This document shows, piece by piece, positions 23,275 to 63,504 of a stretch of 64,000 nucleotides of DNA. The DNA comes from Macrocystis pyrifera. Lineage: Eukaryota; Sar; Phaeophyceae; Laminariales; Laminariaceae. Every line of letters begins with the position of its first letter. The first letter of the stretch is position 1. The stretch covers positions 15,338,080 through 15,402,079 of the forward strand of contig JASSKH010000007.1 in the NCBI GenBank assembly GCA_031763025.1, in the 5' to 3' direction. The notes beneath the pieces were generated by a model that was not told the origin of the DNA, made no database searches, and saw only the letters and a list, made by a program, of their open reading frames with translations. The position numbers were made by a program, and so were the translations under genes.

Positions 23275-23587
23275 TCACGCCGGCTCCGCCTTAGTCTCGT
23301 TGGCAAAGTCACCCCCATCCCCACCATCAAGAGCATTGGCAGCGGACGACTTTGCAACAGCTGTACGCTTCTTGCCGAACCGTGAGACTAGAAGGCCACC
23401 GAGGAGGACGATGCCCAAGCCCACGCCGGCACCACCCGCCGCTGCTACCCACCACGAGGTGTCCTGGCCGTCTGAATCGCCGTCAGCGTCTATACCAGAT
23501 TGCTCGGACCTTTCAGCGACTGTGGTGGGGGAGGGTGTGGCGCCGGTCGACTGAACGTTGTAGCCGAAACCGGCCACTGCCTCCGTA
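23275..23587 (-). CDS. Exon 18 (residues 1100-1203), membrane anchor and stop
   Basis: Acceptor CCCCACAG|TACGG is preceded by a poly-C tract of about 25 bases serving as the polypyrimidine tract. After a Ser/Thr/Asp-rich stalk comes WWVAAAGGAGVGLGIVLLGG, LLVSRFGKKR and a short acidic tail ending at TGA (23,275-23,277). This is a type I membrane anchor with a cytoplasmic tail. A different acceptor (CTGCAG|CCAAC, about 23,637) is possible but would add a poly-Pro run and shift the frame. Confidence 0.82.
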
Positions 23588-26500
23588 CTGTGGGGGGAGG
23601 GGGGGGGGGGGGGGGGGGTTGGGTCAGACGTTGGCTGCAGGGAGAAGGGTTTACTTCCAACAGACCATCGCCACAACACATGAATTGGACATTATTTGCC
23701 CCTCGATAGGGCAGTGCAACTGGGTCGATCAGCCAACGTCGCGCACAAAGGAAAAAAAGAAATAAACGCCAAACGCAAACCGTCGTTCGGCTATGGCATA
23801 GTGGTAGTGGTAGCTAATAAGACTTAGCTCTATGATAGGTGCGATAGCTGGCATAGTTCATCCAAACACGAATATTTCAACAATTAATCATGTCGCAACA
23901 GATCTAAAAACTGTTGCATTATTCCGGTATTACGTATGTTACCAGGGCAGACACACGTATGAGGTCAACTATAGCTGTGCTTGAGCCAGCCGCATTTGTA
24001 ACGAAAGGCCATTGACCGATTGGCAGGGGCAAAAACAACGATATCGATACATGACAATAGTCTCTACACCGATACCGATAACGACCAAGGGAAACGACCA
24101 GGAAAAAAGGGCGATTGGTCGGTCGGATGCCACACAACCAACAGAACCGAACCGAATGCCAAAATTACTATTAATGCGAGGCAAAACGAAACGGAACGCA
24201 ACGCAATCCCACAATGAGGTCAAGTATAGGCGATAGGCGGCAGCTGTCCTCACCCGCAGGTTCCGGCGGCAAGGGCAATAGGGTCATCGTTAGCCTCCTG
24301 TCCCCCCACAATGTTGCCCACAGCCATGATCCCGGTGTCGCTGTGGGAGTTGACGTGGCAGTGCATGGCCACATGCCCACCGAATCGCTCTGCGCGGAAC
24401 CGCACAACCGCCAAGCTCGCTGTACATCATACGAGTAGGACGAAAAAGCGAAGGAAGAGAGACAACACACGTGCAGCAAGCGGCGCACGGTCGGAAATGG
24501 GGATACAGGGGGCACACATTTAAGGTATACCAGCTATGATATGATGTTGTGTAATAAGTTTACTGCTATTCTGCTGCTGCAAAAAAACAGTATACTGCAA
24601 CCTCTGCTCTGCTACAATTGTGATGGTTTGCTGCAGCGGAAACAAACCCCGCGCGGTGTATGCCGCCTCCACCACAGCGGCGGTCCTCGCCGTCGCGCAA
24701 ACAGTAATGTTCATGCTGGTGTATAACGGAATATAATGTATACCAGGTATACTGGTACGTGCGGCTGGGTGATATTATGCTTGCATAAAAAATACTCACT
24801 TACTCAGACCATGTCAACTCATCTTTCGCTCGCTAAATAGAGGGTATGTAGCGTAGGTATAACAGCTCTCGCCAGGATCCCTTGCTATATATGGTACCCG
24901 GTAGTAGATATGTGTTCGTATGACATTCTTGTAACTGTCGGTTGACAATTCTCGTGTCTTATGTGTGTGCTGGTGCAAGGCTCGAAAAAAAAGCAATACT
25001 TGCTAAACTTTTGGGACGGACGGCACGGGTATCCTTCATCACCCAGCCTAAAAGGGAAGTCATGATTCACGAATAAGTTAGGCGGCCGTGTAAATCAGCA
25101 ACTCTTGACCCGCGGGTCGGGCCAGGAAGTTTTGAAAAATCACGGGTCGGGTCAGGTCACCCTTGCCCGAGCCGCGAGATTTGACCCGACCCGTTTCAGC
25201 CCTGACTTCAGCAATACAGCAATAGACTCAATTCGCACAGTCGACAACGTCAATATTAAAACAGTCACTCGAAAACGTGTCGATAACATTGGTATACATA
25301 AACTCACTTGAGACAGTGTCGATCCAGTCCCCCACATGGTTCCAGCCGGGTACGAGCGAAGGCCCTTCCACGTTAACAAACTGCATATGGTTCACGTGCA
25401 GGTGGAACGGGTGCTGCTCCGACCCCAACAAGTTCCACTGCTGCACCCCATCGGCGCTCATGTTCATCAGGAAATCCTCGGGCCCCGTGAAGTACTTGCC
25501 GCCGATCGTCTCCCTGACTAGAAGCCCCAGAGTGTCCGACTGATTGAAGTCTAGGCTGGCCAGGTCTTCAAGGTAGTACGGTCTGCCGTGTTCCGAGGGA
25601 ATTTTCATACAGTACACGATACCAGCGTAGGCCGTGGGAGATGGGTTCGGCGTCACAAGTCACAGTCGAGGACGGGGTTGCGACCGGAGTCGTGGTCGAA
25701 TTTGGAATTGAGTTGAAGTCGGAGTACGGATCGCAGTTGGAATGGGAGTCGCAACCGGATGAATGGAGTCGGTGTTGGGATCGGACTTCCAACCGGAGTT
25801 GGGATCTGGGTTGGAATAGGAGTCTAAATTTGATAAACGGAGCCAGAGTTGGATTCGGAGTGTACATTGGACGAATGTAGTTTGGTACCGGGCGAATGGA
25901 GTCGGCGTACAAATGTCGTTTTTCAAATCCGAGTCGAAATCGGACGAACGGAGTTGCAGTCAGATCATACTAACAGTTCAAATCGGCTGAAGTAAGTCCA
26001 AAAAAAAAAAAAGAAGGTGGATTCGAATGGACGGAGGAGCGACGTTAGGGAGGGAAGGAGGGAGGGCATACTGCGAAAAGGCGACCAAAGGAATTGGCGG
26101 GGAGGTGGAGACGCATTCCAGCCCGGCAATAACTTGTGACGAGATGACGTAAGTTGTTAATAAGGATACCCATACCCATACCCATACACTATGGACCGCA
26201 ACATAGGGACTATTTGGATAAATACTAACATACGAACGGTCTATATTTGGGGACAGGTGCTGAGTTAAATGATCACTGACGTCAACTGATCAGTAAGTCA
26301 AAATGTCTCACCTGCACGGTGTCCATGTCTCTAGGTCATCGTCGGCACCGGCCGAGCCCGCCTCAACACTGAGCACCGCGATTGGCATGGTATCTCCACC
26401 GGTGAGCGCGGATTCTATTCTAACGTCGAAGTCCCCAGCAGTCGAGCATCGTATCGCCGCATCAACCCTGCACACAACCACAACAACCACATTGATACCA

Positions 26501-29500
26501 GTATACATCAGTAAACAAGTATAGCAAGCACGTCACCAGCAGCACGAACAAAAAGAAGAAAGCAGCACCGCAAAATAGGGGGGTAGGGTAGGGTGGAGCG
26601 GTTGGGGGAGAGGGGGGGGGGGGGTTGTTTCAGATGTGCGCGCTGTAAAAATCAAATGGCAACAGGTGAGGATCGATCGACTAAGCAATCGGAAGACAAT
26701 ACGAGTGTTGCAGTACGATGCGGTGCGACCTAAGAATGAATCAACAGATTCGGTGCCGATGTCGACCGCCGTGCCGCCGTGTCGCCGTGTCGCCCCTTCG
26801 TTCTTTCGTTCTCACCGACCCTCTGTCATATTAATAGTGCCTTGTGCATATCATGTGACTTGTGGCTAGAGACGGTCAATATTTACTCGTGACGAATACA
26901 ACATTAGTAGAAAATAGTGGCTTTGTGACTACGGACGAGTGACTCCTGCTGGGATTTACAACTGCATATTAATAGTGGCTACTGGATAAGTCCATAAATG
27001 TTCTTGCTGACCGTACACGACGTATACATGTTGAAAGAAAGACCAGTCACCTAGAAGCTGGCGTGAAGAAGAGCACGGGCTCCATCCTAGGCACCTCTCC
27101 CAGGTACACCCCGTCCTTCGCCAACACGCCCATCTCGCAGTCACCGTCCGGGTCTAGTAGAGAGATGGCGTGATTCGCTCCGTGTCCAGCGAACGCCATT
27201 CGGAAGCGCATCCAGACTCCGGTGGTCATCTCGATCGTCGGAACCACTTGGCCACTCACGAGGTAGTGGCTGAAAGACAAGGACAAGGATAAGGCAGGCA
27301 GAGGCATCACCACGACAACATCGTTAAAAAAAATAGGACTTACTAAAATTAGTTGAAATCGGCCCGGACAGCTCCGCCGAAAAGACATTGCCGGGTAACT
27401 GCTGTATATGCGTATTCATTATATGCCTATTCCTTCACATCTGAGCGTTGTGCCTACCATGTGCATACCCGTCGGCCTCCGGCACACAGTGTCAGCGTCA
27501 GTGTCCGTGCTACTGTAGTTCTTCACGTCACCCTCTAGTGTAGTGTAAAGAGATACCTGATGCCAGCAAGACACAACACTACCTCTGCCGTGCCAAAGTA
27601 GGAGATATTATACAACCAATACGGGGGGGGGGGGGGGGCATAGTTGATAGGGCCTACGGTACAGACAAAAACCTACCAGGTAGATATTTACCCATTTTTA
27701 CTAACAACGTTTGGTCCTATTTACTACAGGCAGTATGGTCCCCCGTAATAATAGTTGAGCAATATCAAGGTAGAGTAGAGTAGAGTAGAGTAAAGGCATA
27801 CTGGCAAGCAACTCTCAACTCTTCTAGGGCAAACTGCAGCCCCCTTCGGGGACAGACCACTCAAATTCCAAGTAGTTTGTCTCCAAAAGTGATGTGGAGA
27901 GACTGCACTCCTACTGTGAGGAGGTTAACCTAGCACACACCCTGCTTTGCTTTCACGAAATCTCTTTGTTTTTTTTTCTCTCATCTCATCTATTATCTTC
28001 GCCCTTCGTTTCTCTCTCCTCCCGCTGCATAGCGGGCAGAAAGCAGGTGAGGCTCTTGTCCCTCCTCCCTTCCCCATTACGGTTCTTGCCTTGCCTTGCT
28101 TTTCTCTTTGCGACAAGACTTCAGCCCTTTCTTCCCTGGTGGACTACTATTACGGTGGTCCATAGTTAATAGGACCTATGGTATACATAAAAACCTATAT
28201 ATTCACCTATTTTTACTAACAAAATTTGGTCCCGTTAACCATGGACCCCCGTAGTAATACTAATAGCATCTCCACAACGGGGGGAATGCAACCACCGAGC
28301 GACGACGCATCAATGGAAATGTCTCGGCAGGGTGATTCCACCAGCACCGTTCACGCTGTGTGTGCCCCACTATTTACTACTTTGGGAGAAAACACAGACG
28401 GAAATTCGCTGCATTGGGCGTGTAGTCTTGCGTGTTATACGTACGGCAGTATAGGGATAGGACAGACAGACCGCATACCAAAAAGAGAAGCCGATGTATA
28501 GGAAGAGGACAGAGAGAACAGAAAGAAGAGCGAAGTCGATCGTGGGTACCGAAAAAACGCGAGACTTGAAACAAAGTTTTACCCTCTGTGTATAGCGTTT
28601 CATGCATCATACATTGAGGTGGCCGTGGTGTTGTACAGCTCGTCTCCGCAGGCGTCCCTGTCAAACGAAGACAGCTCTGGGTTCATTTCCTGTACCATAG
28701 AGACGATGCAGACGATACGACCATGGGGGGAAGGGAAGGGAAGGGAAGGGAAACGAACAGAAAGATGTTATGCGACGCGACGTTTCCTGCAAACCAACCT
28801 CAAACCAGTGTCCAACTTCGAAGACGGGTGTACCCAAATTTGAAGTAGTTTGTATCCACAAAGGTGATTGCAACTATAAAAAGAAGACAACAGCAACAGC
28901 GGCAGCACACCCCTAAAGTAACTATACATTGTACCAGTGGTATGGGTCATATGCTGCTGGACGATTGCTCTGCGCGGGTATGGGCGAGAAGGACGAACAG
29001 AACAACGACAAATGATGTTCCAAGTACCAGAATGATATTCGCGGGTATGCGGCTACATGGGTGACTTGTGCAGCGTCAAGCTAACGAGCGAACGCGTTGC
29101 CTGGCGTTCTTTCTTCAAGCACAAATGGTTGAATGCGACCGAACCGACAACATCATAACGCTACACAATTTTATAGAATGCCACGCCGCCCCCACCATAC
29201 CTCAGCATATATACATACATACTATTAATACCAGCGACACACCATCCCAGCAACTCAAGGTGTCCAGGCGAATCGCAACTTCTGATTGACTGTAACTTTT
29301 GAATCCAAGTTGAAACCGTCACCTGTATGGTAAGTACCATCTCCGGCATGTTGGCTATCTGGTCGGGGATGGCGTGTATGTCTGGTCTGTCTTCGATGAT
29401 GAGGGCCCCCATGGCACCTCCGCCCATCTGCAGGGAGGTGGAGCCGTGGTGGTGGGGGTGGTACCAGAAGGTTCCTCCTGCGTGGTCACAGGGAATGGTG

Positions 29501-32500
29501 TACTCGTCTGAAGCAAGACGCCGAGCGGGAAAGGACAAAAAAAATATAGATAGGGTGAAAAGATTGAGTTAGTTGGCTCTGCTGAAATGGAACCTGCATG
29601 GTCCCTGTTCACACAATGTCAGGGGCCGAGCAAAGAACGAGTGTAATTATCTTTTAGGTACAGAGCAGAACAGCAACATTTTCAAATATTTATAATATCT
29701 TCTATATGTACTAACTATAAATAATAGTAGTGTTTAATAGTGTTGGAGGAATCTGTACCGGCGTACCGCAATCACATGCCGTTCCAAGATTTTCTCCCAG
29801 GAGTTAATGCATAAGCGTTGCGACATGGAAAAAAAAAAACGTGTACAAGATGTTGCACCAGATTCTATCAACCATCCTCGGCGGGTTTGGGTTCCTCGTT
29901 CTCACATGTGTGGCTCTCTCCCGGAGTGATTTTGACGTACAGAACGTCATCGGCGGGGCTCTCGCCCGAGATGTGCAGTCCATGGGTGTGTATGTTGGTG
30001 GTATTGGGATCCTTCATTGTGTTCCAGTTCCCTCCCGGGTTAGGCCCTTCGAGTGAGTTTGTCACAGTGACCTGGTACGTCTGGCACGCTTCCATTCGCA
30101 TCGTGGGGCCCGGGATCTGACTTGGCCATGTTTTAAGCACAAAACGGTCAACGAGACCGATACAAAAAGGAGCAAGAGCGAGGACGCGCAAGTGCCAGGC
30201 GAAAGGACGGGGGGAAAGCGGCAATCAAGAATCAAAAGATCTAGAGAACGATGGCACAATGGTGGTGCCGTAGGGTAGGGTTACAGCAATGGTCTACAGC
30301 TGGGTCGGCAGCAGTAGTTTACAGCAGTTAGTCTACTGCCGCGCCAAAAGAAAACCGTTTTCCCCGACGAATCATACACGGGGGGTGCCTTAATGGTTTC
30401 CTTCTTGACCTTTGCCCAAATTACGCCAGTCACTTCAGCGCCAGGCGTCAACGCCGATAGCACCGCCGTTTAAAACACCGTCTCCTCTACATTGGACAAG
30501 CAAGGCAGGCCAAGGCCTTCAGGAAAAGCCTAGGGCAACAGGCAGTGACACCCACGCGAGACTGAAACACCGACCAAATGATGCTCACCCCACTCAACCA
30601 CCCACCTACAAGTATAAAAACATAATATTAATAGTAGTCAATGCAGTACGTATTCAGTCATAGTCCATGCAGAAAATCGACCAAGCCAGGTGCATCAACT
30701 TCGGTATGAATAACGACCCACAACACCCATTTGAAACGCAACAAAACATACGAACGCTCTCCCCCCGCGTCCTGCCCTCTCCTTCCCCCACTCTTCCCTT
30801 CCGTGCGTACCTGGTACTGGTACGTACACCGTAAAGGGTATACTTCCAAACTGTATGTATTGGCTGCAGTCCCCGATCAAACAATTCTCAGCACATCGCG
30901 ACGAAGGAAGCACAACATCAAAACCAACAACACCAAAACCAATTAAACCGCAACGACACCAAACGGAAGCACACAACACACCTGTCCGTTGAATCCGCGC
31001 GTGGTGGTCACTCCCCAGAAGTTGTCCAACGTCACCACCCCCACCTCCACTTCCCCGACAAACATCCCCGAAGCTTCGTCCAACACCCACTCCAGCTCGG
31101 GCGGCGACTCCAGCGCGCCTCCGATGGGTGCCGCGACCGGCGAGATGGTTGGGGCAGGTGCAACTGTCGGAGCCGACTTGGGAGCGGACGTCGGTACTTC
31201 CGTCATACCGACGGCATTTCCAGCGATAATTTCTATCGACTCGGAGGAGGTTTCGTTCTGAGAAGGGAGATAGGCGGAGGAAGGGGGTGAAAGAGGCAAG
31301 GAGGGAGGGAGGGGGGGAAGTAGAGAGGGAGAAGTCGGTGGAATGTTATGGGCCCGATGGTACTAGAGGGTCGGCTCGCTGGACTCCCTGAGTCGAGAGA
31401 AAGAACTACACATGCCGATACACACAGAGAAGCAGCGCATCATAAAAATTCAAAATTACGGTTGAGTGTTTTGTCGGTCGTTCAACTACTAATACGATGA
31501 CTACTAAACGGAAGCAGCATTTACGCGTGCTCTGTTATTCCCTGTCCTGTTCAGCCTTGTCACTGCATTGTACCTGTATATACCAGGCCAGCACGTGAAC
31601 AAAAGCTAGGGCGCAGTTCGCTTGCTCTTTACCAGTACTCTAGCTGTACCAGATGAAGGCGTTCACAACTGGTACTGTGTCTGGCATGTCTTTATGTCCT
31701 TTCGTACTCATTACGCTTGGCTTGCCATGTGCGATGCCTTTTCCCTGTTACGTAGTTCGTGACCACATCAGAGTTGGTGCATCTCTGGGGTGAATAATCA
31801 GTAGGGAAACTGGGTGTGCTTGTTTTTTCTGGGGAGAAGAATCAACACGGAAATTGGGTGTGCTTGTTTTTCTGGGGAGAAGAATCAGCGCGGACACTGT
31901 GTTAGACTGTGATCTAGAGTAGATGCCCATGGGTGGAAACTACGGTTGAAATGCGAAAACACACACGAAAACCAGAATAGGACAAACAGCAAAATCAAAA
32001 TGGCACCACAGAATAAAAAGTATACCCAGGTACTAGGTACGAAGTATACAAACGAGGTACGCACCAGCGAGTTTGTGGCGTGGACTGTGGCTTCAAAGGC
32101 ACCGTCTTCCGCGTAGGTGCAGACGTGCGTTCTCCCGTTAGCAACGGTCCAGTCACTCGTAGCCTCCAACTTTCCGTCTCCTTCGCAGTCCCATTCTAGG
32201 CTTACGATCCCTTCCACGTCGGAGGACTTCGATGCGTCAAGGGTAACCTCCAAAGGCAACTTGCACAGATGAAACAAAACAGCAACAAAAATACGAAAAA
32301 AAAAAACAAAACAACCGGGCGTGCGCAAGCAAACATGTCAGGGTCAAGGGTAACCTCCAAAGCCAACTGCACCTTACAAACGAATCAACAAAAAACTTAT
32401 GGCGAAAAAAAAAAAAGGCCGCACAAGCGAACATGTTATTATATACCGGTAATACGAGGCCGGTGCTTAGGACGCGCCAAGGCAGGGTATCTCTTGACCT

Positions 32501-35500
32501 CACTATACGATGCGACGCAATGAGTTTCCGTGCATGGAGGTGTGTGGTCAGTCAACATCAGTCTGGGGGTCAAACCGCGTTCTGCTAGAGTACAAGTGAT
32601 TATGAATACGAGCTACGAGTAATGACGGTCTGCTATCAATAGTCTATTAATACTGGTATCATAGCAATACGGGCCGGCCAAGAAGACACATACCTATTAT
32701 GAGCAAGCGTTAGAACCATACTAAACTGTGACACCATGCTTCACAACCTTGAACACACTGCTAGCATGGGCTATTTTACGCCAGAACCTGGTAGGGTCTA
32801 ATGCAGTGCAGCGCTCGCCGCTGAGCACGATTACATACCGTAGTCCAATTTTTCTGAGCGTCCCCCAACAAGTGAGTAACGTGTTCTTCTTAATATGGTA
32901 TTAATAGTGTCATATTTGTCAATTGTGGCCCTATACTGTGTTCTCCATTTTGGGCAGCACCAGTCTACACAAACTAAATTATACTACTGTTATTATCTTC
33001 AAAACGGTACTACTATATTCCCATCACCTGCCATAATTGCAATATTTGGCAAAATACTGGTCAGTACCGATACTAGATAGTGCTGCTGCTGCATGGTGAT
33101 ATGGTCATGATATGATACACATCAGGATAAGGATAGACACCATAAGACAACGAGCAGAAGCGGCGCATCTCCCAGCACGATCCTCCCGATGCCTTCAAAT
33201 GCCACCTACCCCCCCGGAGCGGACAAGGTGTCTCGTACTACTGCTGCACATCACTACTAGGGTATCATATTTCATTGTCCAACCATCACCGTCTGCCGAC
33301 TGCTGAGTCTCGAGTCATGACCAGTGGCGCCAAGCGTGCCCTTTCATTCAATACTTACATTAATATTAATACGCACTAATGCTGTACACCAACACTACTA
33401 ATACCAATTAGCACGTTTATTGATAAAATTCAGCTTCAACGCCACGTACAAAAAACAAAAAACAGTCGAGGGCGTTTGGATGCCGAAATCGGATCGGCAC
33501 TTTTTCTGTAAAAACAAAAAAAAAAAAGTCAGCTCCGGTCAGCTGTGAGATCCAGCATATCGCCGAACCTCGTCTTGGCAAGCTGGGAGTGATACTGCTG
33601 TAATACTGTACCATGAAGCTCGCCGGGCCATAGGCAGCCGTCAAGGAATTTCCTACACAAAAAATACTACAGTAGCTGGCATATTCCATTCAAAGAGGTC
33701 TTGGCGGGTTAAAAGTAAGAATAGGCCGTCAAACGTGTGAATAGACCGTCAACTACTGCTGTAAAGCTCACCGGGCCATCGACAACGTCGGCCTCGAGCA
33801 CGATGGCTGGTCCCCCCGAAGACAGAGGCCCTCCGACAGCAGATATTCTCATAAGGATAGAGAATTTCGCATCGATGGCGTACAGGACACCTGCACAAAC
33901 GAACCAACGAACAAACCAACACAAAGAGGGGAAAAAATGAGCCTAATACATAGCCAAATTCTGTACCGTGTCCCCGAATTACCAAAATAGTGAATTACAA
34001 CCCACATATACTCGGTCTGCTATATACATACATATAAATATATATTTATCACCACTTCCACTTTCCAGCCTAATTCGTAGGAGGTTTTACCCTCAGAGAT
34101 CTTCTGGACAAGCCGTGGTCACAGGTGTCGTCCCTTCTCCCCCCCGGTACGTGCCTTCTATTTATTTTTTGTCGCGCATAGGGTTCAGCATTCCCACTGC
34201 TCGTCGATTTTCATCGAATGTAGAAAACTCACGCTCTCGCGCTTTCCGCTGATCATTTTTTATGCAAGAAAAGTCCCTACGAGTATGCACTCGGTTAGAC
34301 TCGACCCCACAAAATTCAGCCGGCGAAAAAAACCGCCTGCGCAGGCGAAGTTTCAGAACCTGCCAGCAAAAAAAAAAAGGCACGATATTCCCTTGGAAAC
34401 CCGTACAAATATTTGAAAATCACCACCAAGAGTACACAGCGCGCAGCGAACGAACACACACCCATGTACACACGCAGCAGAAGAAGCTTGCAAAAATAGC
34501 TCGCAAAGCAGGCGGCCTGAGAGGGCGGCTCTACGGCGGGTTCGGCTGGTGCTATTAATAGTAGTGTCATTATTCCCAGGTCGTTTACTGACGTACTCTA
34601 GCACGCAGCTCGCACTATGGAGCCGTCGGACACAGCAACACAAAAACAGCAGCAGCAGCACGAGCAGGGGATAGAGGAGCGGCACGAGCTCCCTCGCTGT
34701 TGTAGCTGCTACGGCACAGCAGGCTAGTTGCTCGTTTATAGCACCCCTGCTACAGCTTTAGGTACCTACCTCTAGCGAGAAAAGCAACAAGATAAAATCT
34801 CGTTATTACAGGAAAGGGCACTACTATTATTTATACTCTTAGTACAACGGTATTTTATAGGTTAAAAGCACTACCACAGGTACGTTTTATTTTGGGGAGG
34901 TGCTGACACATACCACTCTGGACGAAAATATACGAGTAACACCTTTTGGAGTCTATTGATAATATAAAAATTAAATCCAATTATTTTTCCGGCCAGCGTG
35001 GCACTGCTGCACCAACGAACGTGGTGCATGCTGCTTGCTGTGTGCATACAGCAGTACGTTTACAGCAGTACCAAGGAACAAGCAATGGTGTACCAGGTAT
35101 ACGCTCAATCATCGACAGCAAGTCCGTGTGTGGGTGCTCGTGTTGGTACAGCAGTGCCACAAGCTGGCCGGAATAATGATTACTATTAATAGATAGGTTT
35201 AGTTTCGATACTGGCGTATTAGACTCCAAACGGTATTACCAGGTATTAAAAATTGCCCAGCATGGCATGCGTCCTCCGGTCGCAGCACCCCAACAAAAAA
35301 AAAAAAAACAACATCCGTATTTAATGCGTTCTTTTAACGCATAAAATACCGTAGTACTTTAACGAGTATTTAATATTGAAATAGTGTCCTTTCCTGTAAT
35401 AAAGATATTATATCTTTTAGCTTTTCTCGCTAGAGGAAGGTACCCATAGCCGTAGCAGGGGTACTATAAACGAGCAACTATCCTGCTGTGCCGCAGCAGC

Positions 35501-38500
35501 TACAACAGCGAGGGAGCTCGTGCCGCTCCTCTATCCCCTGCTCGTGCTGCTACTGCTGCTTGGTGCTGTGTGGGGCGGCTCTAGTGTGAGAGCTTGCGTG
35601 CGAAAGTACGTATGTCTACAATAAACGAGCAAGCAGGGTTTGACAGCACTAGCACCAACCGCACCCGCCGTAGAGCCGCCCTCTCAGGCCGCCCGCTCTG
35701 CGAGCTTGTGCGAGCTTCTTCTTCTCCCGAGCTAGTGTGTGCGTGGGTATGTTCGTTCGCTGCGTGCTGTGTGCTCTTCGTGGTGATTCTCAAAAAATTG
35801 TGCGGGTTTCCACAGGAAATAACGTGCCTTTTTTTGCTGGCAGGTTCTGAAACTTCGCTTGCGCAGGCAGTTCTACGCCGGCTGCACGAAATTGATCTTG
35901 ATGGGGACCCGGACCAGCTACCAAGCCGTCGGGAACGCCGGCTTATATACATGTATCTCTCAAATATACAAAAGTACAGCAGTATGTGGAGGAAAAAGGG
36001 TCCGTGCGCAGTAGTACTTGGCAAGTGTGACCTGATGCACCCAAAAAGTGTTTACAACAGCAGTATTAATAGTAGTGTAACCAAGGTGAGTTCAGTACGT
36101 TCAGTAATAGTCCCAAGTAGGGGACTTCGGTATGTACTCTGGCTCAACGGTACCCCGGTATAAAAGCTGCTTTGTTGGTCATACCCGGCTAGATACCCAC
36201 GCACTCTTGCTAAAATACACACCTGAAGTGCACCATTAATAGCCTACCAGTAGAGTTTGCTCTATTTCATCATCACTGATAAGGTTGTTTAATACTCATA
36301 CAGCAGCAGTAGTCCTTACACAATAGTTGGTATACGAGGAGTCCGACTTTACGGAACAATATCTTGAGGGCGGCAACAAAATATGTACCAGGTACCAGGT
36401 ATCTTGGCAACGAAGGCCGTATCAACAACCCCCACCCGACAGAAATGGGAATCAAAATGCAAAGGGGAAACAGGGATAATGTTGTTCTTCTTGCCACTAT
36501 GCCGTTCATGATGAAAAGGCCATGTTAATGCCCCCATCTACCATGATACAATACCTGTCTTTGGGTCGGCATTGAAGTCGACGATAGCTCGGGCTTCGAA
36601 GAGGACGTGCGGCGTGGTCCAGTCCACCTTGCCCGTCTTCTCATTCATGTCAAAGTAGAAAACGCAGTCCTGTCCACCACGCATTCGTATAATCGGAGGC
36701 GACAGGCGATAGACATCAGGCGGAGAGCGGAGGCGTTGCAGGCCAGTTGATGCTCCCAAGGCCTACTGTAAGCCATGCTCCCAACGCTTAGCGGTAATAA
36801 ATTCGTACGCTATCGTATGCTATCGTGAGTACCAGTCGTTGGGAAAGAACGTACCTGGTACAGCAAATTACTACGAAGTGATATCTTTTTGTTGGCCATG
36901 TTCATGTTCACGTCTTCTGAAGGATAGCACAGGTCCTACTACATTGGCGTCTTCTGGCCTGCCCAATCGAGCGAGCAAACGAACGTCTCGCGTCTGTCCG
37001 ACACGAGTAGCATAACCGAAACCACAAGCAGTGACTTTAATAGTACAGGCAGTACTACTGTTTTGTACATAATAGTGAATGATAGCTCAAACGGTCAAGC
37101 CCAATGGCAACGGACGGCAATGTTCCCCCGGGGTACATCAGAATAATAGAGGCTGCCGACCGTTGACAATCATCCACAGCAGTACAGAGTACTATCATTA
37201 ATAATAATATTAATACATCGTACCTTGTACTGGTACAGCAATATGTATGTATGTACAGCAGCAGCAGCAATGCTACGCAGCACGTACTACGATAATAGAA
37301 ACTCTTGGTAGTATTAATATTGTATTTAAAAGGTAAACATAGATCAGGTGCAGCCAGTCACGAGGCATAGAACAAAACAAAAATATTGCTCAAGAGTAAA
37401 GAGTAAAAACAGGTGTGATATACACTGTAGTCCCAGGTACGTATTATATATTTGAGGGAATAGAGGGAACCACTGGTTATCTCGTCATGCCGCTTTTTAC
37501 GCCCCCGACAGCCTCCTACCAGTATACATCATCCAAGGAAAGCGTACGGCACATGGTAGACATACTACATGCCAGGTAGGGCTTACTGCATTCTGTAGAT
37601 ATCATATTCGGCACCTCGTATGACACACGACACACTGCATATCAGACAAGGCATGGCAAATAAAGACTGCGGCCGCTCTACTCAACGTTGTCGTCGCTTT
37701 GACATGCTGCATTCTCTATGTATAGCACTGTATGTATAGCACACCACACACTGCATACCACATTCCTGGTGCAAGGTGTGAGACACACCGGCAGCAGTTA
37801 AGACAACAACGAAGACATTTCGCGCTGACCTTGGAGTAGTCGCCGATGAAGAGCGCGTTGAGGTAACGCTCCGGGAGGTGAGCGCCCATGTAGATGTACG
37901 CGGCGGACACAGAAGACTGCGTGTTCGCGCACATGTCCGGGTACTCAGGGTCGACCACACCTATTCATTTACGCAGTAGATGATTAGGAGTTCACAACCG
38001 TTAGGGCGTTGGTCGAGGTTACAACCGTCAAGGCATACGTTGACGAGCTCATAACCGTCAAGGCTGTGGCGGTGTGGCAGGGTCGGGGTGAGGGTTAAGG
38101 CAGCGCAGGGGGGGGAGGGGGGGGGTACGGTTGGCAAGAGCGCGACAGCCACGTTTGATGCACGCAGCACCATATGCTGCTTTGCTCTTGTATCGTACCG
38201 AGAGGACATCGAGAGGAGAGATAGTAAGCTAGCAGGCGGGGAGGCAGACGTTGGCGAGGTGAGCGCCAGGTATAAAAATGAGCGTTTTGTACCGCAGTAC
38301 CTGTCTGTCAATAGAAATAAAACATACCTGGTATTAAACTATGAATGGCACGTGACTAACACGTCACTACTGCTGTACCATACGGTATTAGGTTTGGTAA
38401 CATGCCTCTAATATATTTACAAAATAAAAAATAACAGCTAGCTGTAAGTGAGATCGAGGATTTCGTCGAAACTTATCTTTGCAAGCTGCGTGTGTGTCAT

Positions 38501-47500: not shown

Positions 47501-48535
47501 CGCCAAGAAACATATTCTACGGGAATGTATTTTGTGAGTGCTGCACTTTACTCAGTCGATCACAAATTATTATGTCGCAACCTCGACCTCACGCAACTTT
47601 TCGTACTCAAGTTCACGCAGCAAGCATTGAATTGACTTGATCGCCGCGAGTAATTGATCTGTTCAGGATCAATATCCACTTACCGGTATACCCTCTTTTA
47701 CATTATTGAAATGATCCCACACTATTTCCAGAAAGGGCAAGTAGTGCATAGTCTGTCCCTAAAAATGTGTGTGTGTTTTTTTTTCACATCAATGATGGGT
47801 GGATGCAATTATTGATACTGCTGTAGTTCTAAACAGGCGTGGAGGTAGTTCATACGAGCATTATTTCGTTCTTGCGCCACTCCCCTATTACTGACTAATA
47901 GGCACCTCCCGGAGGGGAACCTTGTACCAGAAATAAATCGAGTATATGATATGATACACCGTAGACGCGAGTTTAGCTTTTAGTCTTCGTTGAAACACGG
48001 ATGGGGTTTCCATGGGGCAAGGCAGGTCAGGCAAATTGGTTTGCATCATCCGGCGTTTAAGGCTGTGCATTGGAAAGGACGGCCATTCATTCTCGTAGTG
48101 CTTTGCTGCCATCCGGCGTTGGTCGCTGCGCTTTGGAAAGGAGTGTTAGCAATCAAACTTGATTTGCTATCATCCGGCGTTGGTGGGTGTGAGATGGAAA
48201 GGAGGGCTATTAATAGGACAAAGTGTTGTTGTCATCCGGAGCTGGAGGTTGTGCGTCGGACAGGTGTGTGAGGAAAATGGTTTAGCTGCCATGCGGCATT
48301 GGCTGTGCGTTGGTTAGGACGATCAGGAAAATTGAAAAATAATTCGCTGTCTGCGGCGGTAATAAATAATAAAGTACAAAAGTTGGTGGGTGTGCGTCAT
48401 AAAATGGTTGAAACCTTGGAACAAGGAAATATGTTCTTGTCAACGTACTCCGTCATTGTGCTGCAAGAAAAAAATATATATATATATATATTAAGACGCG
48501 AAAAAACATACCAGGTTGTTGTTATTGTTGTTGTT

Positions 48536-48571
<36 letters not shown>

Positions 48572-51500: not shown

Positions 51501-51851
51501 TTTCAAGTGTCTGCCAGATCCCCTGCGGGGGGGGCACGATGATTTGTTTCTTACATTTTTTTTCTTGTTTCTTTTTCTCTTTCTAATTGTCTTCTTTGTT
51601 TCTCCTTGTTTCGTTTCGTTTCTCTTTTTCATGGAACGTGTGTGTCGTGCCTGTTATATGCAGTATGATGACATGGCATTGCATTGCCCACGGTGCTTAC
51701 TACATACGTGGCAACCTAGTATCTCTGCTATGTGGTGTAGCTTTGTGACCACAAACATGTAACTCTCTGGATTGCAGAATCGGCACGGACGCACGGACAC
51801 TGGTTGTGCTGAATGTCGACGGGTAGAAATAACGGTTAAATGTGAAGAAAA

Positions 51852-51890
<39 letters not shown>

Positions 51891-54800: not shown

Positions 54801-57770
54801 TCGTCAAAATGGCATTACCCGGCGGATAGGGTACGGTCCGGGCTCCAAAATTCGGCGGGTACCCGCAGGGTCCAACCTCTAAGTACGAGTACTGCTTGCT
54901 GCTGTATGCATCTACTGTCTACTGTAATACCTGCTGCATCAATTCTTGATGTACTACTATTAATACTGTAGTTCAGGTCTCCCACAACACTAAACAAGCG
55001 CTTAGCCGCGCAACCATGATATATATATACAGTATGTGTCAGCCTCATAACATCACGACGAGTACGAGTGTCTTTGTTGTCTTTGGTACCCGAAAACTTA
55101 GCCGGTACATTATGTGTCGACTCCTCAGTATGCCGACAGACTATACATGCTTCTCTCTCCTGCTGCTGTTCTGTATTTCTACCGGCGTCCCCGGTGGCTT
55201 GGTAGGTGGTCCGCGAGCATATCAAGATCAATTTCGTGAGTTCGAGTCTCACCGAGTGCATACTCCTAGGGACTTTTTCTTGCATAAAATTGATTAGCGG
55301 AAAGCGCGAGGGCGTGAGTTAGCTGTACATTCGATGAAAATCGACGAGCAGTGGGAATGCTGAACCCTATGCGCGATAAAAATTAAAGGCACGTACCGGG
55401 GGGGAGAAGGGACGACACCTGTGACCACGGCTTGTCCAGACGATTGTCGAGGGTAAAACCTCCTACGAGTGGGCTGGAAAGTAAAAGTGATGAAAAAAAA
55501 AAAAAAAAAAAAACATCTGCTCTGTCTTTCGTTGACCCATTTTTGGACTGCATAACTCATGGCATTATATATGGTACATCATTTACAAACCGCGTCGGGA
55601 CTCATTTACAGCAGTCTCCTCGCTACGTACAGCAGCAGTATCAGGTATACCTGGCACATACATAACTGGAACTCGACGTATCAGGTAGCATATAAGTAAA
55701 GCATTAATGGCATGTCTCTTGCGTCACCCTCTGAGAACCTAATCCATCTTACCAGGTACTGGTAGCTTTCTTCGTGTGGCCATACCTGCTGTACTTCGAA
55801 GTAACCTACGAATTAATAGTGGTATTGTCGTATATGCGTCTATTAATAGTCCTCACATATCACTCCCGAGGGAAATCTTGTACTTGTGGTATGGTCGGTG
55901 GTATCATATGAACATTTGACAAACAGGCCCGTCACATCACAGGCAGCTTTTATCATCCCAAGCTACGAATGACAGCAGTCTACAGCAGCACCAGTAGCCA
56001 CACAAGTTTCAAGTCTAGATAACTTTACAAAACATAGTGATGTACTGCTGCTGCGATGTGGGTATCGTTCAGGATAGAACATCGAACGTGTGAGACGGCG
56101 GCAGTCCGAAAGGATCTGAGTCTAATTTGAGTACCGCTGCAGCTGCTGCTGCTGCTGCTGCTGCTGCTGTGTGCAACTTGGAGCTTGGCTTGGAGGGAAG
56201 GAATCCAAAGTCGGAATTCGAAGGTTGAAACTAGTTAAAGGTTTTTCGGATCTTCCTAGGGCTCCAGCACCTTTGCGACCACCGACTACTGCTGGTGGGT
56301 GTACGAGTAGAGTGAGTGAGTGAGAGGCTGAGTCGAGTGTTGATAACAAAAACACGAACAACAGCAGCAGTACATTACACCTCCAGCACAAGTGTACTCG
56401 TATCAGATGAATACGACGTACACGTACAGCGTATTTCAAAATTTATAAAATATTTTACAATGCGATGCTTGTCCATTTGTACAGGTACGTACGATGCTGA
56501 GGTTCTGAGGTGATCTTATACCATTGCAACAGGTTGGAGCTAGGAGACAGCATTTTCAATCCCTGACAGACAGCAGTAACTTTGCCTCGATATGCCTCGA
56601 CTGATACCAAACTACTTGTTTCGAGTCTTGGAACACTCGGCCCAACTCCCTCGACAGCGCACTTTTTGCCTTCCTTGACATGTCTCCTGACTCCTATCTC
56701 ATGCATGATCTTTGGTTGGAGGCGTCGATTTTTCCTTGCAGCTTGTCGAATTTCAGCGGGGACCTGATCAGAAGCGGCTGTACTTTGATTTCGTCGCTCA
56801 ACAAGGAGCACAAAAAGCTGGACTTTGCTGTACGAAACGAACCTGATATCTCGCTCTGGCTCGTGTCAGCAGGCGAGCATATGCGTTTATACGATACGGC
56901 TGGTGCAAAGAGAGGGCTATGATGGCGATATCGCCTGCCCCATACACAGAGTGGTGGTGGCGGTGCTGCTGCTGCCGCCGCTACTCCTGGTAGTACACAC
57001 CAAACGTACCAACACTCACGACGGCCCTTCCGAAATTGGCATCAAGTTTTTAGTAAAGATTTTTGTACGGTAGGCCAAACTTTCGTTCGATGTGCAGAAC
57101 ACTTGTTATTTGTGCGACGGCATATACCCTTGCTGCTGTTACTGGTGTTGGAGAGCATCCAAGCACCAACTATTAATACTATGACTTCCCATGCATACGA
57201 GCAGCATGGAGCCAAGCCGGCATGTATCGCCTACCACTGGCAAAGTCACGAGTCACACGCGCACCCCGGATAGGAGATACGGGGCATCAGCGGACGAATA
57301 TACGGCAGTAGACAACAGAAATTTCGGTAAATAAACGTACTCGAACCGCCAAAACTGTGAGTGAGATATATGCGTTAGATTCGCTATTCGTTACAGCTTG
57401 ACTCATGGTGAGAGCGCGACACAAGGAACAACCCTAAAAGCCCTCTTACATCTTCCTCCATGTCCACGCAGGTATCGAAGACGGCCGCCACTTCCGTCGC
57501 TCCTCCGTCAGGGTAGATTCGCACCGCTCCTGCTTTGAAGGCGATGAACATGTGGTCCGACACCGCTGAAAAGTCGACAGAAACGGGTACCATGCCGAAT
57601 CCCTCCAAAATATCCTCCACGATGAGCACGTCCTCATCCCGGTCAACTACGCTGTCCAGTATCTCCAGTGCAGTGCAGGAAGGTCGTCTCTGCAAGGCCA
57701 GAACAAGCCCCGCGAAGGCGGCGAAGCGCGCCCATGGACGGAGGCTGCTCGTCGGTCGAGACGTGGCCAT
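23275..57770 (-). CDS. Membrane-anchored secreted fusion: sugar dehydrogenase-like propeller + PKD + multicopper oxidase
   Basis: Eighteen exons with GT-AG borders and consistent phase give 1,203 codons. Residues 1-35 look like a signal peptide (hydrophobic AAFAGLVLAL after several Arg). Residues about 40-510 resemble the PQQ-dependent glucose/sorbosone dehydrogenase propeller, with NHHGGGG (His191) and GFRNPFR (Arg287) at the positions of the catalytic His and Arg of soluble glucose dehydrogenase, plus NHGWPCIEG. Residues about 505-590 are a PKD domain and about 596-620 a Pro/Ala/Thr linker. Residues about 640-1,100 are a three-cupredoxin multicopper oxidase with HTHGLH, WYHPHHH, HPFHLHVNH and HCHVNSHSDTGIM. 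A membrane span (about 1,146-1,168) and a basic stop-transfer RFGKKR follow. Probable role: oxidise a sugar or alcohol at the cell surface and pass electrons to oxygen. Substrate and cofactor use are inferred. Exon coordinates are listed separately. Confidence 0.88.
24254..24419 (-). CDS. Exon 17 (residues 1045-1100), copper motif 4
   Basis: Acceptor GTACAG|CGAGC and donor GCGG|GTGAGG. Reads SLAVVRFRAERFGGHVAMHC then HVNSHSDTGIMAVGNIVGG. HCH...H (His1064, Cys1065, His1066, His1070) completes the copper sites. Ile at the usual axial position suggests a type 1 copper without a Met ligand, although a Met follows. Confidence 0.94.
25308..25582 (-). CDS. Exon 16 (residues 953-1045), copper motif 3
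   Basis: Acceptor CGGCAG|ACCGT and donor TCAA|GTGAGT. Contains RPYYLEDLASLDF, then GSEQHPFHLHVNHMQFV and GWNHVGDWIDTVS. HPFHLH (His1010, His1013, His1015) supplies type 1, type 2 and type 3 ligands in the standard order. Confidence 0.95.
25660..25960. repeat. Degenerate GGAGTTGGGATCGG minisatellite in intron 15
   Basis: Imperfect repeats built on GGAGTCGG, GTTGGGATC and GGATGAATGGAGTCGG. The minus-strand reading is a Pro/Thr/Ser-rich low-complexity frame that overlaps no exon. Confidence 0.6.
26312..26467 (-). CDS. Exon 15 (residues 901-953)
   Basis: Acceptor GTGCAG|GGTTG and donor GCAG|GTGAGA. Reads RVDAAIRCSTAGDFDVRIES then TMPIAVLSVEAG, matching the end of domain 2 (R.D..VR....G.Y.......). 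A shared AG splits codons at both ends. Confidence 0.86.
27051..27269 (-). CDS. Exon 14 (residues 828-901), second cupredoxin domain
   Basis: Acceptor CTTTCAG|CCACT and donor TCTAG|GTGACT. Reads HYLVSGQVVPTIEM, GVWMRFRMAFAGHGANHAIS and RMEPVLFFTPAS. The VNGQ..P...M..G...R.R pattern is typical of domain 2 of multicopper oxidases. Confidence 0.88.
27616..27754. mobile_element. MITE family M1, copy 3 (intron 13)
   Basis: Starts AATACGGGG with an expanded run of about 15 G, then CATAGTTGATAGGGCC, a TTTTTACTAAC core and GGTCCTATTTACTA, and ends GTCCCCCGTAATAATAG. A TACCAGGTA motif lies inside. Confidence 0.7.
28147..28258. mobile_element. MITE family M1, copy 4 (intron 13)
   Basis: CTATTACGGTGGTCCATAGTTAATAGGACC at the left pairs with GGTCCCGTTAACCATGGACCCCCGTAGTAATA at the right, giving roughly 30-bp inverted ends, the clearest of the five copies. 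Confidence 0.8.
28613..28689 (-). CDS. Exon 13 (residues 803-828)
   Basis: Short exon: acceptor GGTACAG|GAAATG, donor TCAAT|GTATGA. Reads EMNPELSSFDRDACGDELYN and is chosen because its phases join exons 12 and 14 without a break. It lies between the first and second cupredoxin domains. Confidence 0.72.
29323..29507 (-). CDS. Exon 12 (residues 741-802), copper motif 2
   Basis: Acceptor CTTCAG|ACGAG and donor CAG|GTGACG. Reads CDHAGGTFWYHPHHHGSTSL and MGALIIED. WYHPH (His757, His759) is the second motif, with both His binding type 3 copper. An earlier donor (ATG|GTACTT) is possible but would drop the conserved MVLTIQ strand. Confidence 0.93.
29906..30116 (-). CDS. Exon 11 (residues 671-741), copper motif 1
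   Basis: Acceptor AAGTCAG|ATCCC and donor ACAT|GTGAGA. Reads IPGPTMRMEACQTYQVTVTN and NIHTHGLHISG. HTHG (His713, His715) is the first multicopper oxidase motif, in which the two His bind type 2 and type 3 copper; Thr replaces the usual Trp. Confidence 0.94.
30982..31257 (-). CDS. Exon 10 (residues 579-670), linker and start of the oxidase
   Basis: Acceptor TTCTCAG|AACGAA and donor CAG|GTGTGT. A PKD end (NETSSESIEIIAGNAV) leads into a Pro/Ala/Thr/Ser-rich linker (APKSAPTVAPAPTISPVAAP), then the first cupredoxin strand with GVVTLDNFWGVTTTRGFNGQ. Confidence 0.86.
31640..31960 (+). repeat. Repeat family S3, diverged copy (intron 9)
   Basis: Internal threefold repetition of GGGGAGAAGAATCA...GGGTGTGCTTGTTTTTCT (31,785-31,900), with CGTGACCACA and a GGGTGGAAAC..ACGGTTGAAATG ending. 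It resembles the tandem pair at 51,630-52,120 and a copy at 42,640. Confidence 0.5.
32065..32259 (-). CDS. Exon 9 (residues 514-578), PKD domain
   Basis: Acceptor TGCAAG|TTGCC and donor CTG|GTGCGT. Reads LPLEVTLDASKSSDVEG, SLEWDCEGDG, RTHVCTYAEDGAFEATVHAT. These are the PKD (Ig-like) features PL.V..DAS.S.D, W..DGDG and Y...G.......A. Such domains space catalytic modules outside the cell. The acceptor region is tandemly duplicated just upstream. Confidence 0.88.
32236..32450. repeat. Tandem duplication of about 107 bp spanning the exon 9 acceptor
   Basis: GTCAAGGGTAACCTCCAAAG occurs at about 32,236 and again at 32,343. Both copies continue into A-rich DNA and CAAGCAAACATGT/CAAGCGAACATGT. The upstream copy preserves an acceptor (GTGCAG|TTGGC) that would put the PKD domain out of frame. 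Confidence 0.75.
34070..34316 (-). mobile_element. S1 SINE, copy 3, 3' part (split by a MULE-like element)
   Basis: Reads on the minus strand as the S1 body: CCAGCC..TCGTAGGAGGTTTTACC, GACAAGCCGTGGTCACAGGTG, GGTTCAGCATTCCCACTGCT, TTTTTATGCAAGAAAAGTCCC and GCACTCGG. It stops inside the B-box region at 34,316. The missing head is found at 35,885-35,945. Confidence 0.85.
34317..35884. mobile_element. Mutator-like foldback element, 1,568 bp
   Basis: Begins CAGCCGGCG and ends CGCCGGCTG. The arms (about 34,317-34,830 and 35,385-35,884) are long inverted copies sharing GAAGTTTCAGAACCTGCCAG, GAGAGGGCGGCTCTACGGCG, GATAGAGGAGCGGCACGAGC and AGCGAGAAAAGC. It is flanked by the 9-bp duplication CACAAAATT/CACGAAATT. 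Long inverted arms plus a 9-bp duplication are typical of Mutator-like elements. No transposase is visible, so it is non-autonomous. It lies in intron 8, inside an S1 SINE. Confidence 0.85.
35885..35945 (-). mobile_element. S1 SINE, copy 3, 5' head (other side of the split)
   Basis: The minus strand reads GCCGGCGTTCCCGACGGCTT, GGTAGCTGGTCC and CAAGATCAATTTCGTG, i.e. the S1 head with its A-box, ending exactly at the duplicated AATTTCGTG. It continues at 34,316 on the far side of the inserted element. Confidence 0.85.
36550..36762 (-). CDS. Exon 8 (residues 443-513)
   Basis: Acceptor ACAGTAG|GCCTTG; the donor is taken as ATT|GTATCA because this phase 0 exit joins DFNADPKTGI in frame to LPLEVTLDAS of the PKD domain. 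The alternative donor ACAG|GTATTG would break the frame. Contains GGQDCVFYFDMNEKTGKVDW and ARAIVDFNADP, the propeller end and PKD start. Confidence 0.78.
37830..37960 (-). CDS. Exon 7 (residues 399-442)
   Basis: Acceptor GAATAG|GTGTGG and donor AAG|GTCAGC. Contains CANTQSSVSAAYIYMGAHLP and LNALFIGDYSK, which match the propeller's closing blade (usually GG.VY.G...P.L.G.Y.FGDY). Confidence 0.88.
38777..38925 (-). CDS. Exon 6 (residues 349-399)
   Basis: Acceptor ATTCCAG|GTGGC and donor GACG|GTAACT. Reads WLVDNENDACDAVRGTTLG, LPLDIDYDALKEKAMKG and DWVPPAFTYSDG. The two Cys-containing acidic stretches suit a secreted protein. Phase 2 entry and phase 1 exit fit the neighbouring exons. Confidence 0.82.
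39157..39280. mobile_element. MITE family M1, copy 5 (intron 5)
   Basis: CACGGGGGGCCATA then CCATAGTAAATAGGACCTACGG at the left, TTTTTACTCAC in the core, GGTCCTATTTACTATAG then CCCCCCGTAATAG at the right. Confidence 0.75.
39697..39902 (-). CDS. Exon 5 (residues 281-349), with the catalytic-Arg block
   Basis: Acceptor TGTGTCAG|CTGGAA and donor CCA|GTGAGT. Contains KGFRNPFRLTVAP (Arg287), DDVIIADVGLDTMESIKVV and GNHGWPCIEG, three hallmark blocks of glucose/sorbosone dehydrogenases. A 13-bp minisatellite abuts the acceptor. Confidence 0.92.
39905..39968. repeat. 13-bp minisatellite abutting the exon 5 acceptor
   Basis: Five copies of GTGACACACAAAA run up to the AG of exon 5. On the gene's strand each unit reads TTTTGTGTGTCAC, and the last one, changed to TGTGTGTCAG, is the acceptor itself. 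Confidence 0.85.
40590..40790 (-). CDS. Exon 4 (residues 214-280)
   Basis: Acceptor GGTTAG|GCTGAC, donor TTT|GTGAGAC, phase 0 at both ends. Contains PQGNFRAQRDDFNEGKLLRI, the segment before the catalytic Arg that ends in GK.LRI in this family. Confidence 0.85.
41793..42012 (-). CDS. Exon 3 (residues 140-213), with the catalytic-His block
   Basis: Acceptor CCCGCAG|ATACG and donor AAG|GTAGGC. Contains DCLVIPFFCEKDHRLVRVEV, EILINDWCTGSNHHGGGG and MAFLANGDMALTVGDMSK. The His in H-x-x-G-G followed by MAF and GD matches the base position of soluble quinoprotein glucose dehydrogenases (His191 here). Confidence 0.9.
42640..42830 (+). repeat. Repeat family S3 copy with CAA microsatellite (intron 2)
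   Basis: Carries TGACCACAGATTTAGCGTATCTCT, GGAATCAGGACGGACACTGG, GTGTACTG and TAATGTGAAGACAACAACAA, which runs into about eight CAA triplets. The order is the same as in the copies at 51,630-52,120. Confidence 0.6.
43299..43396 (-). CDS. Exon 2 (residues 108-140)
   Basis: Acceptor CAACAG|GTTTAC and donor GG|GTAAGG. Reads VYDNNDLGLLNFRLHPDWPT and GFMLYTHDV, the glucose/sorbosone dehydrogenase block usually seen as NDRGLLG..HPDF followed by YV.YT. The Arg of NDRG is Leu here. The join to exon 1 keeps frame and motif order. Confidence 0.88.
44985..45235 (-). repeat. Decayed S2 repeat (intron 1)
   Basis: The + strand shows TTGGCGTCGTCGGCAGG and GGGTTCGATCCTTGCCGTCATTCCC, the S2 tRNA-like A- and B-boxes. 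The rest of the family follows at low similarity, including GAGAGCGATGCGATCATCGCA. The flanking stems do not pair as an acceptor arm, so it is not a tRNA gene. Confidence 0.55.
45338..45520 (+). repeat. Dispersed repeat R1, copy 2 (intron 1)
   Basis: Matches 1,855-2,015; it has a short insertion (GGCGGGAGTGGATAAGACGA) before the shared CCCTGGTTCCAGTACGAGAG. Confidence 0.7.
45625..45725 (+). repeat. Dispersed repeat R4, copy 1
   Basis: Shares CGTGCGTGTGCGACACACCC, TGTGGCTGGTTGT and TTCATCGGAGCCTGC with 59,490-59,585 in the same orientation. Confidence 0.6.
46190..46412 (+). repeat. Tandem duplication, about 109 bp per unit (intron 1)
   Basis: CCTTTGTCGCAGTACGCG, CTGCTGTCGTATCATATCA, AGCAGTAC.GCTGTACATGCA and AAGCTACTC occur twice in a row. 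Confidence 0.75.
46625..47925 (+). repeat. Dispersed repeat R3, copy 2 (intron 1)
   Basis: Matches 3,040-4,300 along its whole length in the same orientation. An open frame of about 330 codons crosses it, but it is dominated by the GTACTCGCAG microrepeat, is not open in copy 1 and shows no domain, so I do not call a gene. Confidence 0.75.
47990..48340. repeat. Minisatellite with CATCCGGCGTTGG units
   Basis: Five to six degenerate units of about 60 bp, each with CATCCGGCGTTGG, GTGCGTTGGAAAGGA and a GGAAAATTGGTTTGC-like end. Confidence 0.75.
48531..48571. repeat. GTT trinucleotide microsatellite next to an S3 end
   Basis: About thirteen TTG/GTT units precede TTCTTCACATTAAACCGTTC and CTACCCGTCGAC, the reverse complement of the S3 end at 51,815-51,850. 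It is therefore the tail of an inverted S3 fragment. Confidence 0.7.
48780..50205 (-). repeat. Repeat family T, inverted copy (intron 1)
   Basis: This is the reverse orientation of the units near 60,880-64,000. Read leftwards it starts with AAGGCGCTTCGCTCCGCGGG and the hairpin GCGGGCGGC-CTAC-GCCGCCCGC, continues through CAAACTGGCGACTTGATAAT and GGGTACTTATTTTCTT, and ends near GAGATCTAAGTAAG at 48,790. Positions 48,829-49,096 are tandemly duplicated at 49,097-49,360 (period 268). Confidence 0.8.
50908..51018. repeat. Foldback element with about 45-bp arms
   Basis: GACCACAGAATGCATTGTAT and TTGTGGCGATGAGCTAATGTG at the left pair with CACATTAACAAGCTCATCGCCACAA and ATACAATGAAGTTCGTGGTC at the right, around an AACAACAACGAT loop. 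Confidence 0.8.
51630..52120 (+). repeat. Repeat family S3, tandem pair with AAC tail (intron 1)
   Basis: Unit 1 (51,630-51,893) and unit 2 (51,905-52,120) share GTGTCGTGCCTGT, GATGACATGGCATTGCATTG, GTAGCTTTGTGACCACA, ACGGACACTGGTTGTGCT, ATGTCGACGGGTAGAAA and GGTTAAATGTGAA. Unit 1 ends in about thirteen AAC triplets, resembling the simple-repeat tail of a non-autonomous retroelement. No clear tRNA promoter is seen. Confidence 0.7.
53148..53305. repeat. GGGTACCC-rich palindromic block
   Basis: Repeated GGGTACCCGGGTACCCG, GGCGGGTA and GACGGGTAG words, self-complementary at many points. A second block lies at 54,765-54,880, and a related ACCCGCGGGTCGGG block at 25,098-25,205. Confidence 0.65.
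53380..53902 (+). repeat. Repeat family S2, near-complete copy with duplicated ends (intron 1)
   Basis: Flanked by direct copies of ACTAAAAATGTTACGTAACA and ACGCTACATGAATTCAAGG...CTCGATT(T/C)CCACCACA. The CCTGACTTATC...AAGTCAGGAACCCCGATGAC block is also duplicated inside (53,462-53,505 and 53,545-53,605). The tRNA-like B-box lies on the minus strand at 53,766-53,784. Confidence 0.75.
54765..54880. repeat. GGGTACCC-rich palindromic block, second copy
   Basis: GGGTACCCGG, CGGGTACCCGGGTACCCGG, ATTACCCGGCGGATAGGG and GGCGGGTACCCGCAGGGTCC, related to 53,148-53,305 in inverse order. Confidence 0.6.
55183..55513 (+). mobile_element. tRNA-derived SINE (family S1), copy 2 (intron 1)
   Basis: Same head (A-box TGGCTTGGTAGG, B-box GAGTTCGAGTCTC), body and poly(A) tail (about 20 A, 55,493-55,513) as copy 1 at 5,247, with only scattered differences. 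The two copies look recent. Confidence 0.88.
56540..56700 (+). repeat. Dispersed repeat R2, copy 2 (intron 1)
   Basis: Matches 2,330-2,500 in the same orientation, including AGGAGACAGCATTTT, CTGACAGACAGCA, GACTGATACCAAACTACT and GACATGTCTCCTGA. Confidence 0.6.
57450..57770 (-). CDS. Exon 1 of the dehydrogenase-oxidase fusion (residues 1-107)
   Basis: ATG at 57,770-57,768 begins MATSRPTSSLRPWARFAAF, a signal-peptide-like start, and no other in-frame ATG precedes a hydrophobic stretch. VPVSVDFSAVSDHMFIAFKA and GAVRIYPDGG are the first blades of a propeller. The exon ends DMEED at a strong donor, GAT|GTAAGAG, phase 0. Confidence 0.88.
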
Positions 57771-62037: not shown

Positions 62038-62040
62038 TCT

Positions 62041-63500: not shown

Positions 63501-63504
63501 AGTG

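Follow-up and report, generated by a model that had tools for sequence, protein, structure and literature searches.

Does a single gene of Macrocystis pyrifera join a sugar-dehydrogenase-like propeller to a complete multicopper oxidase (MCO), as had been proposed from the DNA letters alone (hereafter the sequence-only reading), and if so, what might such a protein do? The locus lies on the minus strand of a 64,000-nucleotide stretch of contig JASSKH010000007.1 (assembly GCA_031763025.1, positions 15,338,080 to 15,402,079), here called the window and used for all coordinates. On the available sequences, one gene almost certainly encodes a fused propeller-oxidase protein; what its two halves do for each other is a matter of more graded confidence.

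Gene model and fusion junctions

From window position 57770 down to 23275, 19 exons with GT donors, AG acceptors and consistent phases (Table 1) form one frame of 1210 amino acids (aa), whose sole stop lies at its end. The sequence-only reading was right in seeing one gene of many exons, which it had counted as 18, and the in-frame stop between exons 8 and 11 that it had named as grounds for giving up the fusion does not occur. The protein consists, in order, of a signal-peptide-like start, a six-blade propeller of the GSDH type, a PKD-like domain, a linker, a three-domain multicopper oxidase and a membrane helix. Both the secretion signal and the membrane anchor proposed earlier are seen, the former judged by eye and the latter from hydropathy (helix at about aa 1151-1178, top 19-residue score 2.04 at aa 1156). 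There are six N-glycosylation sequons (aa 586, 715, 829, 973, 1000 and 1203), the one at aa 1203 being past the membrane helix. The tail, FANETKAEPA (23275-23310, minus strand), is nearly identical to FADETKAEPF in the related protein P0001 and is a possible sorting signal.

The fusion does not depend on guessed introns, since exon 9 (propeller to PKD-like domain) and exon 11 (PKD-like domain to oxidase) are single open exons that each span a junction. Both align to four predicted proteins, P0001, P0002, P0003 and P0035. P0001 (EukProt g13031.t1, 1209 aa), which is placed within the brown-algal rows in the trees, is 69.6% identical over its residues 4-1209 (1,219 columns) and matches all 19 exons at 48-85% identity per exon. 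The other three are partial predictions that share the propeller, PKD-like part and exon 11: P0002 (Ectocarpus) continues to exon 17, P0003 (Hapterophycus) runs from exon 2 up to exon 12, and P0035 (Sphacelaria) starts from exon 2. The nearest match with a species name, P0103 of Laminaria digitata (92% identity over the oxidase part), starts at the first residue of exon 11, across which 85 of 92 residues are identical. The single frame, the bridging exons and the 70% identical, near-full-length P0001 thus uphold the one-gene proposal. A misreading of two adjacent genes, or of an assembly join, as a single gene is highly improbable: exon 1 does sit 14 kb upstream of exon 2, and the exon chain rests on genomic sequence and predicted proteins, but each junction exon contains, within one open frame, the last part of one domain together with the first part of its successor, the fusion or its junctions recur in other brown-algal predicted proteins, and the propeller and oxidase trees concur.

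Pfam scores were obtained from a 1154-aa provisional translation that lacked exon 2 and some of exon 4. Here Cu-oxidase_3 (63.7 bits, cut-off 21), Cu-oxidase_2 (34.1 bits, cut-off 20.4) and GSDH (28.4 bits, cut-off 25) were above cut-off, while PKD_4 (19.2 bits, cut-off 27) and PKD (18.2 bits, cut-off 23.5) were below it, so that the Pfam check suggested with the sequence-only reading bears out the propeller and the oxidase and falls short for the PKD domain; for Sphacelaria P0035, PF00801 is precomputed. A six-frame motif scan placed oxidase motifs at 25413 and 24363 on the minus strand. In a scan of the window DNA, GSDH motif patterns did not locate the second exon, which homologues did, and a GLLGL string right after exon 1, resembling a GSDH motif, was dismissed, as homologues place exon 2 at 43396-43299. 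With the oxidase half as query, the own genome (537,376,219 bases, 223 contigs) gave eight match places, all within this locus, a search that intron-broken distant relatives could escape. A Pfam model search of the same genome gave zero matches, this locus included, which we attribute to introns interrupting the domain.

Distribution and history of the fusion

Chrysoparadoxa australica P0004 and the metagenome proteins P0005-P0007 likewise have a propeller followed by an oxidase, with the PKD part absent by alignment and with divergent propellers (Pfam GSDH above cut-off in P0004 and P0005). CBM6 matches occur in P0004, P0006 and P0007, above cut-off in P0006 alone. A Tribonema minus sequence that starts at its oxidase (P0119) clusters with these Chrysoparadoxa-type rows. 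Brown algae belong to the PX clade. Chrysoparadoxa and Tribonema are assigned to the same clade in the NCBI taxonomy.

In careful trees, the brown-algal rows unite with the Chrysoparadoxa-type rows in a single group for the oxidase (44 rows, 100/99) as well as for the propeller (42 rows, 100/100), and quick trees (63 and 80 rows) concur. A further pair, P0014 and P0015, has the same order of GSDH and then oxidase as the kelp protein, but is placed apart from the other fusions in both trees. Grouping all fusions in one clade is rejected by the approximately unbiased (AU) test (p-AU of 0.003 for the oxidase and 0.029 for the propeller, the latter only moderately strong and both for groups defined after the quick trees had been seen). 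One old fusion and a second, independent one in P0014/P0015 would therefore be the most likely history. P0014 and P0015 also differ from the kelp protein in the last type 1 copper His of HCHxxxH, which is Asp in both as well as in P0016; the type 1 copper site of all three is probably altered.

A protein search with the fusion alignment showed no further combination of GSDH and Cu-oxidase Pfam domains among the 71 proteins listed. Of the best 80 loci from at least 578 related stretches in prokaryote genomes, 78 contain an oxidase and two a GSDH, and none has both in the fetched DNA. Viral contigs contained no relative, and megablast of the oxidase end against phages gave no match. To call the architecture unusual, as was done earlier, is fair, with the qualification that it is common to other brown algae and Chrysoparadoxa and that a second GSDH-oxidase fusion exists.

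Active sites of the two halves

With respect to the oxidase half, all three cupredoxin domains of the three-domain laccase type are present, and the window protein, P0001 and P0103 each possess the full set of copper ligands, ten His and one Cys distributed over four motifs, in agreement with the sequence-only reading. NCBIfam gave only matches far below cut-off for P0001, P0004 and P0103.

The propeller keeps the catalytic His and Arg blocks described earlier (H191 and R287-N288). Numbered by soluble glucose dehydrogenase (sGDH), counted on the 1c9u alignment, the His144 equivalent is kept in 79 of 80 GSDH rows (one gap), and the equivalents of Arg228 and Asn229, on the quinone side, in 80 and 80 of 80. 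A Protein Data Bank (PDB) search with the single sequence of Sphacelaria P0035 found no GSDH relative; profiles were required.

Proposed mechanism and alternatives

We tentatively favor, at somewhat less than an even chance, a dehydrogenase of the GSDH type facing the secreted side, followed by a flexible linker and a laccase-like oxidase, with electrons passing within one chain. The protein would be an exported type I membrane protein, the C-terminal helix serving as its anchor and the enzyme domains lying outside the cell and facing the wall. At the propeller, a hydroxyl or aldehyde group of an extracellular sugar or polysaccharide would give up hydride to a quinone-type cofactor that may be bound differently from that of sGDH, and the linker would allow the oxidase to swing to the propeller, so that electrons could enter at the type 1 copper and then go to oxygen. 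An analogous role has been ascribed to the mobile haem domain of fungal dehydrogenases. Taken by its parts, catalysis by the propeller is evenly balanced; its use of pyrroloquinoline quinone (PQQ) and its oxidation of a sugar or alcohol are putative, and transfer of electrons inside the molecule from propeller to oxidase is doubtful. A still lower probability attaches to the reading that a self-contained surface chain in which a quinone-type dehydrogenase hands electrons to an MCO arose twice, both times without the proton-donor Glu, with its oxygen chemistry tuned or gated by the partner.

Several observations weigh against the dehydrogenase-to-oxidase chain. The GSDH score exceeds its Pfam cut-off by 3.4 bits only, and among the Chrysoparadoxa-type proteins GSDH is under cut-off in P0007 and has no match at E 0.01 in P0006. 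In sGDH, Arg406 is likewise one of the residues at the PQQ carboxylates. Lys377 and Arg408 hold these carboxylates, as described in passages of PMC6881789. All five brown-algal rows, the window protein included, have Ser, Ala and Val at the 377, 406 and 408 positions, and across the 80 GSDH rows position 377 is basic in none (three gaps), 406 is Arg in one and His in two (four gaps), and 408 is basic in none (three gaps), implying that PQQ is absent or held in another way. An Arg-x-Arg pattern is seen in four PQQ-type chains (2g8s and 1c9u, and by weak alignments 2ism and 3a9g). In the predicted model of P0002, confidence (pLDDT, predicted local distance difference test) is below 50 at linker residues 605-631, and with a PKD-like domain and such a low-confidence stretch between propeller and oxidase nothing implies that the path for electrons is short and fixed. 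In the oxidase, the place that we take to be that of Fet3p Glu487 is Asn, and the proton-donor position of CueO Glu506 and CotA Glu498 is Ser. A Glu of this type is found in 0 of 10 rows of both fusion groups (two of them partial, with the propeller unseen) and in 119 of 127 ungapped rows outside them, although it is not conserved across all MCOs and hence not strictly defining. Replacement of CotA Glu498 by Thr or Leu causes severe impairment, according to passages of PMC2944330, and with Ser at this position one can be less confident than for an ordinary laccase that oxygen ends up as water and not as peroxide, as was claimed earlier.

In the leading alternative, the propeller has lost its enzymatic function and, in the manner of the GSDH-fold propeller in HHIP, binds the matrix or acts as a spacer, keeping an ordinary laccase-like oxidase on wall polysaccharide for phenol oxidation. 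We consider this somewhat less likely: conservation of His, Arg and Asn in 79, 80 and 80 of 80 rows is not what one would predict for a mere scaffold, and HHIP has His-Asp at the Arg-Asn place, albeit by a very weak alignment. Rather improbable is that the oxidase acts on Fe(II), Mn(II) or Cu(I) in uptake or detoxification, the propeller being unrelated to electron supply. CueO is among the best structural neighbors, and an MCO coupled to an Fe(III) permease has been proposed for Ectocarpus, in passages that name no gene (PMC3904714); the tests made, which do not include the ferroxidase acids, show no metal-substrate site.

Comparison with known systems

The AA12-type PQQ contacts of the Coprinopsis PQQ pyranose dehydrogenase CcPDH (AA8-AA12-cellulose-binding) are Arg273, His539, His560 and Arg621. 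Passages on CcPDH describe a protein that, like the kelp fusion, combines a eukaryotic six-blade PQQ-type propeller with a second redox domain. Bacterial GSDH-PKD proteins (P0018-P0022 and their kin) match the propeller and PKD parts at 25-31% identity and resemble the kelp protein in the kept His and Arg-Asn and, almost completely, in which basic residues are gone, and some are annotated as PQQ-dependent sugar dehydrogenase; in contrast to the kelp protein, none with GSDH and PKD_4 Pfam domains, among the matches listed, also has a copper oxidase. The same holds in the broad set of 80 GSDH rows, mostly GSDH-PKD proteins, where the catalytic His and the Arg-Asn pair persist, the basic residues at sGDH 377, 406 and 408 are nearly always gone, and some rows are named PQQ-dependent sugar dehydrogenase. 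The Thermus thermophilus laccase and CueO share the three-domain fold and the copper ligands of the kelp oxidase but are standalone, and CueO has its proton donor Glu506 where the kelp oxidase has Ser.

Exon coordinates and other features of the window

Table 1. Exons of the propeller-oxidase gene in window coordinates
Exon	Position	Strand	Content
1	57450..57770	-	aa 1-107: start codon, signal-peptide-like start, first propeller strands; P0001 66/106, P0002 68/107
2	43299..43396	-	propeller, aa 108-139; identified via homologues; P0003 27/32
3	41793..42012	-	propeller; NHHGGGG with H191, equivalent of the catalytic-base His, codon 41861-41859
4	40590..40790	-	propeller, aa 214-280; extent set with homologues
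5	39697..39902	-	propeller; GFRNPFR with Arg-Asn pair R287-N288, 39884-39879
6	38777..38925	-	propeller, aa 349-398
7	37830..37960	-	propeller, aa 399-442; GDYSK; Ser at sGDH Lys377 position
8	36555..36669	-	propeller, aa 443-480; RAIVD; Ala/Val at sGDH Arg406/Arg408 positions
9	33772..33890	-	aa 481-520: last propeller strand into start of PKD-like domain
10	32065..32259	-	PKD-like domain, aa 521-585; Pfam PKD under cut-off
11	30982..31257	-	aa 586-677: end of PKD-like domain, Thr/Ala/Pro linker, first oxidase strands
12	29906..30116	-	oxidase domain 1; HTHG copper ligands 29990-29979
13	29323..29507	-	oxidase domain 1; YHPHHHG copper ligands from 29463
14	28613..28689	-	oxidase, aa 810-834
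15	27051..27269	-	oxidase, aa 835-907
16	26312..26467	-	oxidase, aa 908-959
17	25308..25582	-	oxidase domain 3; HPFHLH copper ligands from 25413
18	24254..24419	-	oxidase domain 3; HCHVNSHSDTGIM from 24363, type 1 and trinuclear ligands; Ser at Glu506-type position
19	23275..23587	-	stalk, membrane helix, short tail ending ETKAEPA, stop

Beyond the 5' end of the gene, two to three partial tandem copies of a repeat of about 1.5 kb are found at 61000-64000, and inverted copies of parts of it lie in intron 1 (48780-50200), with arms that are 82-97% complementary. On the plus strand, retroelement remains at 12169-14521 (separate open frames for RT_RNaseH, 59.7 bits, and Integrase_H2C2, 30.8 bits) sit within a GC-rich stretch at about 8-16 kb.

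Implications

Both families are known singly, and the linked architecture is the new element: we know of no description of a GSDH-oxidase fusion, and none of a propeller-oxidase fusion was found in the open-licence literature searched. For members of the GSDH-PKD subfamily without the basic residues of sGDH, the name "PQQ-dependent" needs testing. Pairings of a dehydrogenase with a copper oxidase have been built artificially for biofuel cells, and the kelp protein, if the proposed reading is true, would be a natural counterpart in which one chain unites a dehydrogenase-type propeller and a copper center that reduces oxygen. As the oxidase half matches at this one locus only in the 537-Mb genome, deleting the gene looks feasible as a way to probe whether it acts in wall or phenolic chemistry.
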